Origin: Fervidobacterium pennivorans DSM 9078 | Lineage (GTDB): Bacteria > Thermotogota > Thermotogae > Thermotogales > Fervidobacteriaceae | Length of the DNA: 64,000 nucleotides | Assembly (NCBI RefSeq): GCF_000235405.2 | Contig: NC_017095.1 | Span: 1,141,501-1,205,500 of the forward strand | Reading direction: 5' to 3' | Part shown: positions 1 through 60,655 of the stretch, one piece after another | Position numbering within the stretch: the stretch's first letter is position 1 | Layout: every line of letters begins with the position of its first letter | Program-made: the position numbers and the translations under genes | The notes under the pieces: generated by a model | Database searches by the model: none | What the model was told of the DNA's origin: nothing | The model's input: the letters and a program-made list of their open reading frames with translations, nothing else

Positions 1-448
1 TTGTAGGGATGAAACCATTTTCGAATCGCGTCCTGACAATCACTGGTTTACCTCTTGCTAACAGCACCTGCGGAACATAACTAACCCACAACGGAGCAAA
101 CATCAGAACTTCGTCATTTTCTTCAAGTATTGCAGAAAAAGCGTTGAAGAGTGCCTGTTTACCACCGTTGCTAACAACAATCTCATCAGAAGAATATGAC
201 ACACCCTTCTTTTCTTTCAAATATTTCGATATCGCTTCACGCAGTTGAGGTATACCGTTGCTATCTGTGTACTTTGTGAACCCTTTTTGCAAAGCTTCGA
301 TAGCTTTATCAACTATGTTTTTCGGTGTCGGAAAATCTGGCTCTCCCACGGTAAAGTTAATTACGTCTTTGCCTTCAGATAAGAGCTTTTTTGCAAGTGC
401 ATCAATCTCCAGTGTTTTTGACGGTGCTATACATTCTGTAGGATGCAT
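1..448 (-). CDS. Class I aminotransferase (aspartate aminotransferase type), 3' end outside window
   Basis: This is the N-terminal 149 residues of a fold-type I PLP aminotransferase. It starts at ATG 448 behind AGGTGGTG. The beginning has the class I pattern: a SKT segment near residue 10, the VGEPDFPTP motif near residue 35, a TDSNGIPQLR segment and then VSNGGKQALFNA, which helps bind the PLP phosphate. The catalytic lysine lies beyond the window. Family knowledge points to aspartate or another amino acid with 2-oxoglutarate as substrates. It lies 36 bases downstream of gcvPB on the same strand and may be co-transcribed. Substrate specificity cannot be read from this fragment. Confidence 0.85.
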   Translation of the reverse strand, partial: MHPTECIAPSKTLEIDALAKKLLSEGKDVINFTVGEPDFPTPKNIVDKAIEALQKGFTKYTDSNGIPQLREAISKYLKEKKGVSYSSDEIVVSNGGKQALFNAFSAILEENDEVLMFAPLWVSYVPQVLLARGKPVIVRTRFENGFIPT

Positions 449-57109: not shown

Positions 57110-57568
57110 GTGGAAAAGTTTGAGATTTCAGTTGTTAGAGCAGAAATTGGTAGTATTTTAATATTTACAAGAAATGACGTCTGCGAACAAATCCAACTAA
57201 CTGAAGATATTTTACCAGAATACGGAAATAACATATTCACAAGACAGATTAACGAGTATCTTTGCGGTGAACGGAAAGTTCTTGATTTTCCAGTTAGGTA
57301 TTCGACTGGTCCCGTCTTTGAAAAGATTTGGTCATATTTGAAAGAAAATGTGACTTATGGTAAAATCATAACGTATGGAGAATTGGCTAAAATATGCGGT
57401 ACAAGTGCAAGAGTTGTCGGATACGCTATGGCATCAAACCCATTGCCTTTGTATATTCCATGTCATAGGGTTGTTGGTAAAGATTCTATAGGCGGGTTTA
57501 CAGCAAGAAATGGTAAATCTATGATTAAGTGGAAAGAATATCTTTTGAAGCTGGAGGGATCACTTTGA
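57110..57568 (+). CDS. ogt: Methylated-DNA-protein-cysteine methyltransferase
   Basis: Repairs O6-alkylguanine by irreversible transfer to its own cysteine. The acceptor motif PLYIPCHRVVG carries that cysteine; FEKIWSYLKENVTYGKIITYGELAKICG is the DNA-binding helix-turn-helix with the arginine finger in SARVVGYAMASNP. 152 residues. GTG start after GGGGG. It overlaps the PBP gene by 4 bases. Confidence 0.95.
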   Translation: MEKFEISVVRAEIGSILIFTRNDVCEQIQLTEDILPEYGNNIFTRQINEYLCGERKVLDFPVRYSTGPVFEKIWSYLKENVTYGKIITYGELAKICGTSARVVGYAMASNPLPLYIPCHRVVGKDSIGGFTARNGKSMIKWKEYLLKLEGSL

Positions 57569-59619
57569 AGAAATTCTTGTTCACATTATTTTTAACATTT
57601 TTCTTTTTGTCCCTGTTTACACCTCTTGTGATCTACAACAGATATACTGCAAATCTCTCAGCGCCACAGAACAAAATTCCAACAAGCCTGGTTGTTGAAT
57701 ATTCTGACGGGACACCATTGTACAGTCCAAAGACTGTTTGGGTTGATTTTGATGATATTCCAGTACTCGTTAAGGACAGTGTGATAGTATCTGAAGATAA
57801 GAGGTTTTACACTCACAGTGGTGTCGACCTTATAGGAGTAGCTAGGGCTCTTTTTACGATAATCACCACCGATGAAATTCAAGGTGGAAGCACCATTACT
57901 CAACAGTTAGCAAGAACTTTGTATCTCTCACAGGAGAGGACTTGGAAACGCAAGATAAAAGAGGCACTTATTGCACTTTGGTTGGAACAAAATTACTCAA
58001 AAAATGAGATTTTAGAAATGTATATAAACTCTGTATACCTAGGTAATGGAGTTTACGGTTTTCCAGCAGCTGCAAAATTTTACTTTAACAAAACCCTGGA
58101 ACAACTAACACCTCTTGAAATTGCAATGCTCACTGCAACACTCAGATCTCCGGAAAAAGCCAATCCATTGAAAGAGCTGAATAAAGACTTCACAAAAAAC
58201 GTTCTGAGAAAAATGAAGGAGGCCGGAGTATTAACTGAACTTGAATATTCACGTGCGTTGGAGGAACTTAAAAATATAGATATAAGAAACACAAATGATT
58301 TTGCACGTTCATTTGATCAGGATCTCTTTTGGATAATTGTTACAGAACTCAAAGAGCTTGGATTTGAACTCGGAGATTTAAGAAATGGCTTCAGAGTTAG
58401 GACTACAATTGACAAGAAGTTGCAAGAGCTTTTAGTTTCTAACATAACCAAAGACCAATGGGCTGGGTTGATAGTTGAGCATTCAACAGGAAAAATAAGA
58501 GCAGCGTATGGACTTGGTATAATTAATGGGCGTCGGCAGCTTGGTTCAGCTATAAAACCATTCTACTATTACCTTGCATTTATGGCAGGGTACAATCTTG
58601 ATGACTTTCTTCCGGACAATCCTATCAAAATTGGGCGATGGGAACCAGAAAACTTTGACAAGAAATTCCGAGGGAAAGTAACTATTGAATATGCGCTCGC
58701 ACACTCTTTGAACATACCATCTATCAATTTGTTTTTGAAACTTGGACAAGGAAATGTTACGAATTTCCTAAAGAATACATTGATGATATCAGGTTTCTAT
58801 CCTAACGATGCCACTTTGGCACTTGGGACCTTAGAAACATCCGTTGCCGATGTTGCGCAAGGTTATTCAGCAATATTTACTGGAGGTTTAGTCATCAGAC
58901 CACGAATTGTTGAGTACGTTAAGGATAAGAATGGGTACGTATACTATTCGTACAAACCTGCTTTAGTAAATGTTGTTAAACCACCCAAGGAATTTGATAA
59001 AAGGACACCGCTAGAAGCTTCTATCCTGACACTCAGGGCAATGGAAAAAGTAGTTACCGAAGGAACTTCCCGGTCTGCACAAATGCCTGGAAGAAAAATA
59101 TACGGAAAATCAGGTTCTGCGGAAAACTATGCGTGGTTTGTTGGGGGAGACGGAAAATACCTCTTCATACTGGCGAGGGATAACGTAAAGGAAGTCAGTG
59201 GTCTTGTAGTAACTCCAAAGTGGAGAGAGATAGCTGTCAAAACTGAAATAGGATACACTCCAATTTCTTTACCGATTAACAGTAAGATTCAAAGATTCAA
59301 CGTCATGGGCGACTCCGAAAACCTTACAGAACCTAAAACAGTTACAGGTGAGGCTCCAGAAAGCACTTCAACTACCTCACAACCAGAAACAATAAATTCC
59401 GTTCAAGAAACAAATCAAAATAAACCAATAAAACTGTCTCGGGAAGAGATTGTTTCCAGGGTGAAAACATCCTCAATTACAGCAAACGAGCTTGTTGAAG
59501 TTTTGAAATCATATAGTCCAGATGAAAGAAGAACCATCCTTTCTGAAATAAACTCTTTGTCGCAAGAACTTGCGGCGGAAGTCTATCAAAAGCTATTAGA
59601 CCAAGGTATAGAGTTTTAA
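57565..59619 (+). CDS. Class A penicillin-binding protein (peptidoglycan glycosyltransferase/transpeptidase)
   Basis: A bifunctional cell-wall synthase of about 684 residues. It has an N-terminal membrane anchor, then a GT51 domain with EDKRFYTHSGVDLIGVARAL and GGSTITQQLARTLYL, then a transpeptidase domain with the serine in LGSAIKPF (SxxK), HSLNIPS (SxN) and YGKSGSAENYAW (KSG). A Ser/Thr-rich linker and a helical tail (about 600-684) of unknown role end the protein. TTG 57565 follows GGAGG. The transpeptidase domain is compact compared with E. coli PBP1a. Confidence 0.94.
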   Translation: MKKFLFTLFLTFFFLSLFTPLVIYNRYTANLSAPQNKIPTSLVVEYSDGTPLYSPKTVWVDFDDIPVLVKDSVIVSEDKRFYTHSGVDLIGVARALFTIITTDEIQGGSTITQQLARTLYLSQERTWKRKIKEALIALWLEQNYSKNEILEMYINSVYLGNGVYGFPAAAKFYFNKTLEQLTPLEIAMLTATLRSPEKANPLKELNKDFTKNVLRKMKEAGVLTELEYSRALEELKNIDIRNTNDFARSFDQDLFWIIVTELKELGFELGDLRNGFRVRTTIDKKLQELLVSNITKDQWAGLIVEHSTGKIRAAYGLGIINGRRQLGSAIKPFYYYLAFMAGYNLDDFLPDNPIKIGRWEPENFDKKFRGKVTIEYALAHSLNIPSINLFLKLGQGNVTNFLKNTLMISGFYPNDATLALGTLETSVADVAQGYSAIFTGGLVIRPRIVEYVKDKNGYVYYSYKPALVNVVKPPKEFDKRTPLEASILTLRAMEKVVTEGTSRSAQMPGRKIYGKSGSAENYAWFVGGDGKYLFILARDNVKEVSGLVVTPKWREIAVKTEIGYTPISLPINSKIQRFNVMGDSENLTEPKTVTGEAPESTSTTSQPETINSVQETNQNKPIKLSREEIVSRVKTSSITANELVEVLKSYSPDERRTILSEINSLSQELAAEVYQKLLDQGIEF

Positions 59620-59641
59620 AATGCATTGGAGGTGTTGTGAA

Positions 59642-60175
59642 GTGAAATTTTTCTACAACTTGGAGAGAAAGGATAACTTTGAATACATAGTTCTGCGGGT
59701 TGAAGAAAATAATCTGTCAGGAACAGGAGCAATACTACCAATTAGAAAAAACGGTGAGAACTATAAAATTTTTATGGGGGTAATTGAAGAGTACAGAAGC
59801 ATCGTTGAAAAACTGCACTGCGAAGATGTTTTTGTCATTACCGGTATACTTGAAGAACATTTTCCAAACCATCCGAAGGTTAAGTTTGCAATCCAAGCAG
59901 CAGTACTTGAACTGTTTTCTAAAAAATACAACCTTGACATCAACAAACTTCTGGGCGGTCTGAAGTCAACCAAAAATGAGTTGTGTGGTGAAAGGCTCTT
60001 CCCTGAGTACTTGGGAGATGTCTTTCATGCAAAATACTATCCAGGAACCAAAAAAGAAACGAATACGACATTTGTCCTAACAAAATATCCAAATAACGAG
60101 ATGGATACTATCCTCAGTGCGCTTTCCTCAAATTATGAGTATCTGGAGGTGATTTCTTGGAGAGAACTTTTATAA
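59642..60175 (+). CDS. Stand-alone enolase-superfamily N-terminal-like domain protein, function unknown
   Basis: Residues about 1-115 resemble the capping N-terminal domain of muconate-lactonizing/mandelate-racemase enzymes: strands with GTGAILPIRKNGENY, then a helix pair ending AIQAAVLELFSKKYNLDINKLLGG, the hallmark run before the barrel. The catalytic TIM barrel that should follow is absent. Instead there are about 65 unrecognised residues with a weak strand-helix pattern, and the protein stops. GTG 59642 with GGAGGTG gives 177 residues. It is tucked between a PBP gene and ndk and overlaps ndk by 19 bases. It might be a pared-down dipeptide-epimerase relative. Confidence 0.5.
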   Translation: MKFFYNLERKDNFEYIVLRVEENNLSGTGAILPIRKNGENYKIFMGVIEEYRSIVEKLHCEDVFVITGILEEHFPNHPKVKFAIQAAVLELFSKKYNLDINKLLGGLKSTKNELCGERLFPEYLGDVFHAKYYPGTKKETNTTFVLTKYPNNEMDTILSALSSNYEYLEVISWRELL

Positions 60176-60600
60176 TACTTAAGCCAAACGCAGTTAGAAG
60201 AGGGCTCATTGGAGAGATATTGAAAAGATTCGAGCAAAGAGGAATAAAAATCGTCGGTCTAAAGTTTCTTTGGATGACACAGGAGCAATGTGAAAAACTG
60301 TATGAACCACACAAAGGTAAACCATTTTACGAAGAACTTGTGAACTTCATGATGAGCGGACCTGTTGTGGCAATGGTTGTAGAAGCACCGAGAGTAATAG
60401 AAATGGTAAGACACATCGTTGGAGCAACTGATCCACTTAAAGCAGAGGCGGGAACAATAAGGGGAGAGTTTGCACTAACCGTAACTAAAAATCTCATCCA
60501 CGCAAGTGATTCTGTTGAAAATGCCGAAAGAGAAATGTCCATATTCTTCTCACCAGAGGATTTGATAGAGTATAAACTTGATATACAAGACGATATTTGA
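60157..60600 (+). CDS. ndk: Nucleoside-diphosphate kinase
   Basis: Balances NTP pools by phosphate transfer through a histidine. ERTFIILKPNAVRRGLIGEIL is the family start; ATDPLKAEAGTIRGEFA and NLIHASDSVENAEREMSIFF (phospho-histidine in NLIHASDS) follow. 147 residues, normal. The TTG start at 60157 follows GGAGGTG and lies inside the end of the preceding gene. Confidence 0.95.
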   Translation: MERTFIILKPNAVRRGLIGEILKRFEQRGIKIVGLKFLWMTQEQCEKLYEPHKGKPFYEELVNFMMSGPVVAMVVEAPRVIEMVRHIVGATDPLKAEAGTIRGEFALTVTKNLIHASDSVENAEREMSIFFSPEDLIEYKLDIQDDI

Positions 60601-60622: not shown

Positions 60623-60655
60623 AAAACCTGGGGGTCAACCCCAGGTTTTATTCTT
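60623..60655. terminator. Bidirectional terminator between ndk and nhaC
   Basis: AAAACCTGGGG and CCCCAGGTTTT form an 11-bp stem with loop GTCAA, followed by a T-rich stretch in both directions. Confidence 0.9.

Follow-up and report, generated by a model that had tools for sequence, protein, structure and literature searches.

A conserved stand-alone protein of Thermotogales with an enolase-superfamily capping domain and, probably, the last strands of a barrel

Enolase-superfamily proteins are treated as enzymes made of a cap and a barrel. The cap, three strands followed by helices, closes over the substrate and selects it. The muconate lactonizing enzymes and other MLE members (3my9, 1nu5, 1muc) are complete two-domain proteins of about 350-370 aa, and the L-Ala-D/L-Glu epimerase of Thermotoga maritima (2zad, 3deq, 3der, 3des, 3dfy; NF041118) has a complete barrel with the KxK motif, the D/E/D metal ligands and the β6 lysine. 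In the epimerase YkfB, we take K162 to lie on β2 and K268 on β6. These two lysines are its acid-base residues (PMC5808125). Here, we describe a real and conserved family of much shorter proteins, to which no model in the searched libraries is dedicated; its member in Fervidobacterium pennivorans has 177 residues. The family is also present in T. maritima, where the locus tag of the orthologue is presumably TM0238, and our literature search found no paper on this tag. In mainly open literature, including the accessible parts of PMC4215206 and PMC5808125, we found no description of a stand-alone or truncated enolase cap, nor of the small gene in a murE neighbourhood.

The gene lies near the end of the window, by which we mean the whole stretch of 64,000 nucleotides that was analysed (Table 1). 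The first-pass annotation had credited it with its own start, a good ribosome site and a stop, and all are present: a GTG start (ATG at the same codon in two close relatives), a GGAGGTG site 7 nt 5' of it and a TAA stop. It had also placed ndk downstream in another frame, which is the case, and the two genes overlap by 19 nt. The start of ndk is apparently TTG and its ribosome site sits inside the preceding gene. The gap between the end of the penicillin-binding protein (PBP) gene and the small gene is 22 nt. By eye, the last ~60 codons of the PBP form a helical-looking tail; a similar tail occurs in congeners without the small gene and is thus independent of it.

Table 1. Features at the locus, in positions of the window
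Feature	Position	Strand	Basis
6-O-methylguanine-DNA methyltransferase-like gene, first of the row	57110..57568	+	library search
Class A penicillin-binding protein (Transgly + Transpeptidase), directly upstream of the small gene	57529..59619	+	library search
Ribosome site GGAGGTG of the small gene	59628..59634	+	sequence; most orthologues have a similar site
CDS of the 177-aa barrel-depleted enolase-superfamily protein	59642..60175	+	sequence, orthologues, dN/dS
Capping domain, residues 1-105: three-stranded meander and helices	59642..59956	+	NCBIfam, profile-profile, model
Variable linker, residues 106-116, presumed excision junction	59957..59989	+	family alignment, model
Strand-helix-strand-helix-strand piece, residues 117-177, read as β6-α6-β7-α7-β8	59990..60172	+	predicted structure only
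Ribosome site of ndk, within the small gene	60145..60152	+	sequence
ndk (nucleoside diphosphate kinase), TTG start	60157..60600	+	ORF list, library search
Terminator-like hairpin after ndk, matched on both strands	60623..60649	+	hairpin search

The small protein is neither an artefact nor a pseudogene product. We searched 41 genomes, its own and those of 40 relatives. At E <= 1, 37 of them gave a match, and strong matches (E 2.4e-22 or better) revealed a stand-alone orthologue in 27. These 27 orthologues are 172-183 aa long, mostly have a clear ribosome site, are free of frame damage down to about 30% identity and are never fused to a barrel. One of them (in G025) lies inside a 328-aa open frame, whose extra upstream stretch runs antisense over murE. 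The gene is under purifying selection: dN/dS is 0.010 in the closest pair (dN 0.0048, dS 0.47) and 0.024 in the next one, where dS is already 1.8. Both parts of the protein are constrained, with dN 0.022 vs dS 2.7 in the N-terminal part and dN 0.077 vs dS 1.6 in the C-terminal part of one pair.

To search more widely, we used a profile of 20 aligned sequences (alignment A1: the window and 19 of the 27 loci, near-duplicates omitted), in which 23 columns are invariant. It matched 51 of 103 genomes of the phylum at E <= 0.01. The stand-alone gene is carried by 31 of them (E <= 1.5e-58), 17 in the window's family (f1) and 14 in family f3. The other matches fall in families f10 (18 genomes), f6 (one) and f2 (one). 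Those of f10 and f6 lie in frames of 254-376 aa, and the 12 examined are full-length proteins of 310-344 aa. The f2 match (G030, C-terminal part, E 0.002) we regard as chance, its frame reading by eye like a ribosomal-protein methyltransferase. Finally, two peptide patterns were used to scan contigs. Of 50 candidate stretches, 11 proved to be relatives, and their titles all name Thermotogota, Thermosipho or Thermotogaceae; such a scan detects pattern carriers only, and the family may be present elsewhere.

Three congeners do not carry the gene (G001, 99% complete; G003, 81%; G004, 60%), and all three keep the PBP. The distance between the PBP and ndk matches is about 118 nt in G001 and about 129 nt in G004. 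In G001, the gap includes a short sequence, adjacent to the ndk ribosome site, that looks like the final dozen codons of the small gene (58% over 12 residues, which is not significant on its own), and G004 is similar. These scraps lie at about 300-350 of both L082 and L083. It is thus likely that these two genomes deleted the gene but kept its end for the translation of ndk. One might read such losses and leftovers as signs of a decaying gene, or of a mis-called reading frame. But the undamaged orthologues and dN/dS values of about 0.01-0.02 refute decay for the carriers, and we give this reading practically no credence.

What is this protein? Its residues ~12-109 share homology with the capping domain found at the N-terminus of dipeptide epimerases. 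The NCBIfam model A_G_epim_Thtga (NF041118) matches residues 12-109 with E 4e-7 and 29.5 bits; this is below its curated cut-off of 500 bits, and the protein has neither the score nor the full length of an L-Ala-D/L-Glu epimerase. Profile-profile comparison, which the first-pass annotation had proposed as a check, found the cap homology: with residues 1-105 as query against 23 full-length proteins (11 epimerases, 11 f10 proteins and one f6 protein), hhalign aligned residues 14-105 with E 2e-13 and a probability of 98.0%. The whole small family against the 11 epimerases alone gave 57% and E 1e-4. Foldseek ranks the dipeptide epimerase of T. maritima highest (3dfy, E 1.7e-6), and the Pfam model MR_MLE_N is marginal, matching 4 of 20 members with a best E of 0.012. 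In the predicted structure of the window protein, three N-terminal strands are followed by helices. The fold assignment of the cap is thus strong, hhalign, NCBIfam, Foldseek and VIA all pointing to an MR_MLE_N-type capping domain. The conserved motif of this part is G-x-G-x-x-x-P-x-R-x-x-G-E-N-Y-K. Among other library matches of the window protein, Pox_E6 and DUF5722 in Pfam were at chance level, as were those in PHROGs, and PADLOC gave none. A multicystatin that topped the PDB sequence search (E 3.7e-5) we also take for a chance match, as it is no longer listed with the family profile.

The first reading of this gene was that of a solitary cap whose recognisable part ends at NKLLGG, where the barrel of MLE-type enzymes begins. 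The homology indeed stops near residue 104-109, and the protein is conserved as a stand-alone one carrying a cap. It does not seem to be a cap and nothing else, however, as the residues beyond NKLLGG superpose near the end of the barrel in two models. Both were made with AlphaFold2, the first for the window protein with alignment A1 (mean pLDDT 93.0), the second for the T. maritima orthologue with 10 f3 sequences and none from the window's family (pLDDT 92.8); they are partly dependent, since four to seven rows of the second or their near-copies are also in A1. The order of elements is the same in both: the cap, a variable linker and a strand-helix-strand-helix-strand piece. The linker varies in length within the 20 aligned sequences, and the pLDDT block means over residues 101-120 are 83 and 87. 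In the last piece, P121, E122, G125, Y149 and P150 are invariant.

When superposed on the full-length chains that Foldseek ranked highest, at least 171 residues are matched at 2.2-3.0 Å in the ten best rows of both models, and no unrelated fold was seen. The first model matches 3my9 with Z 18.2 (171 of 177 residues, 2.5 Å) and 3dfy_E with Z 16.4 (173 residues, 3.0 Å), its residues 1..177 falling on 5..325 of the latter chain. The second matches 3ijq_A with Z 18.2 (177 of 180 residues, 2.4 Å) and 3dfy_E with Z 17.0 (177 residues, 2.8 Å; 1..180 on 5..322). Muconate lactonizing and other MLE enzymes are among the highest structural Z values. In all 50 rows listed for each search, the match runs from near the start of the chain to at least residue 313; in the T. 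maritima enzyme, residues 317-320 form the β8 motif DLDS. By these end points, about 150 enzyme residues ahead of the barrel end are unmatched in the small protein. We infer from the models that they comprise β1-β5 and, with them, the KxK motif and every metal ligand. The protein has no complete (β/α)7β barrel; it has 177 aa in total and, in both models, three strands beyond the cap. Neither the profile nor the superposition end points place in it the KxK motif of β2 or the three acidic metal ligands of β3-β5, and hhalign aligned no segment of residues 106-177 to β2-β5.

The assignment of the C-terminal part is good at the level of the predicted fold, and residues 117-177 are probably the last strands of the barrel, β6-α6-β7-α7-β8. 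This reading builds on predicted structures and range end points and must be taken with care as AlphaFold2 was trained on enolase folds, which may favour such packing. The sequences do not speak for it. The best hhalign match of the C-terminal part (E 0.026, probability 1.9%) is away from the expected place, and the pairwise scores of 23 C-terminal parts are within shuffle noise (z -0.6 to 1.2) and agree on no place. Only alignment by eye pairs FPEYLG with KLMKSG, TFVLTKY with LMIGCM and YEYLEVISW with FEFHDLDS. One might argue that the protein is a true solitary cap that gained an unrelated α/β piece at its C-terminus. The absence of similarity between residues 106-177 and any barrel segment would fit, and so would the weak match of the C-terminal part to the methyltransferase-like frame of G030 (E 0.002), although this is expected of any strand-helix-strand piece. 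But nearly all residues of both models superpose on full-length enzymes, and a gained domain is not expected to make all listed matches end so close to the end of the barrel. We consider such a gain rather unlikely.

Could the missing barrel be supplied by another gene? A cap without a barrel, as first described, would fit half of a split enzyme. Yet the position of the last strands is already occupied in the model, and a search with the barrel model PF13378 in 61 genomes, including all 31 carriers, found no lone barrel in the window genome. The matches there are the 346-aa frame of the epimerase and one of 443 aa, which we take to be enolase itself, and nothing else; the site of the small gene has no match in its own genome. 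No full-length enzyme takes this place in the orthologues examined. A split enzyme is therefore exceedingly improbable. The small protein might also bind or regulate the full-length L-Ala-D/L-Glu epimerase, or compete for its substrate. The T. maritima dipeptide epimerase is its closest characterised relative by fold, with a homologous cap and a chain on which the whole small protein superposes, and most carriers also have the epimerase. Six of the 31, however, have no epimerase-like match to PF13378 (G017, G023, G096, G097, G098 and G099), and the enzyme occurs without the small gene in G001, G003, G004 and family f2. The best E values in the six are 2.5e-9 (G023) and 2.4e-8 (G017), weaker in G096, G098 and G099, with no match in G097, and these weak frames (321-457 aa) would be enolase itself. 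Four of the six genomes are only 92-94% complete, which makes the absence of the epimerase uncertain in them. The small protein thus does not seem to need the epimerase, and we find such a partnership very doubtful.

The full-length proteins that match the family profile best are those of f10, probably Petrotogaceae (E 1e-8 to 3e-4, 18 genomes). We examined 11, of the same class and 310-334 aa long (L063-L066, L068-L074). Most have G-E-T-Y/F-K where the small protein has G-E-N-Y-K. Unlike the small protein, they have the barrel, with PF13378 above its cut-off in the three tested, and their gene neighbourhood is different. All 11 keep the acidic ligands on β3, β4 and β5, but both catalytic lysines are replaced: the second of β2 by E (10) or D (1), that of β6 by D (5), E (4) or S (2). 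The replaced positions correspond to K162 and K268 of YkfB (PMC5808125). These proteins may be a family of pseudoenzymes or have an altered chemistry. In an unrooted tree of the cap region, the stand-alone family, the f10 proteins and the epimerases each fall on one side of a branch. Such a tree cannot show which is nearest, and the proximity of f10 is based on profile scores and the shared motif only. Should they be the closest full-length relatives, catalysis would seem to have been altered or lost before the excision. Barrel fragments were also noted. A 113-aa frame (L066:8-346) repeats some of the barrel encoded by the f10 gene, from which it is separated by about 5.6 kb on that contig, and another partial PF13378 match, in G084, has an internal stop. 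In the window, a 6-O-methylguanine-DNA methyltransferase-like gene precedes the small gene by two genes, and one is also found a few genes from the f10 gene in the three loci tested (e.g. L063:4208-4666), perhaps a trace of a shared neighbourhood.

The gene order PBP, small gene, ndk had been suggested as something to look for in Thermotogae. It is the rule in the window's family, where all 17 loci have the PBP immediately upstream and 16 have ndk next, the exception having ndk elsewhere on the same contig. It does not extend to the other carriers. In Thermotoga-like genomes the small gene diverges from murE and precedes a glgC-like gene (8/8 loci), and in a third group NfeD and a radical SAM gene are upstream (6/6 distinct contigs). 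Four Thermotoga-like stretches of 19-20 kb show the order murE-murF-mraY-murD-ftsW-murG-murC; NCBIfam names murE, murF, mraY, murD, murG and murC in one of them, and ftsW is our assignment by position. One Thermotoga-like genome encodes an epimerase with the same sequence as the T. maritima PDB entry. That two of the three contexts consist of peptidoglycan genes is suggestive of a link with peptidoglycan. Since ndk overlaps the small gene, simple co-transcription is an alternative reason for the order in the window's family. A ligand or partner from peptidoglycan synthesis is thus a tentative guess, drawn from two gene neighbourhoods only (PBP and murE), and we hold it to be possible rather than probable. 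Dipeptide binding or regulation of the PBP, put forward in the first-pass annotation, would be conjectural as well; six of the 31 carriers show no epimerase-like match, and the three congeners without the small gene keep the PBP.

Our preferred reading, to which we give a probability of roughly 0.6, is that the family kept the cap and the last strands of the barrel, lost about 150 residues of the barrel and became a soluble, non-catalytic binding protein. The ancestor would have been an enzyme of the enolase superfamily, similar to MLE or dipeptide epimerases. The excision would have removed β1-β5, the KxK motif and the three metal ligands and left the cap and, probably, β6-α6-β7-α7-β8. Since KxK and the metal ligands would be lost with β1-β5, the metal-assisted proton abstraction of the superfamily is not expected. 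Binding would then be the most likely activity, with the start of the GENYK helix, the PxR loop and the turns PE..G and YP lining a residual substrate pocket. The edge opened by the missing strands may be shielded by another copy of the protein or by a partner. One could also propose that the protein is still an enzyme, with a new chemistry in the remodelled pocket, given its invariant polar residues (E14, K42, E49, E50, H77 and E122). But the protein lacks the segment in which the metal ligands and the β2 lysines would lie, and the β6 lysine would not be conserved where the alignment by eye puts it, which makes this improbable.

One may speculate further on how such a binding protein arose. 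The lysines might have been lost first, as in f10, and five of the eight strands later, leaving a stand-alone recognition module, preserved by strong selection, that reads a cell-wall precursor peptide and tunes the neighbouring PBP or Mur enzymes. We see this as rather unlikely. If true, excision of the catalytic core would have turned a member of a complete two-domain enzyme superfamily into a sensor. The family offers a natural test of what the cap does alone and of how the barrel tolerates a large internal excision. It also provides a functional hypothesis for an uncharacterised gene of Thermotogales that lies beside PBP and mur genes.
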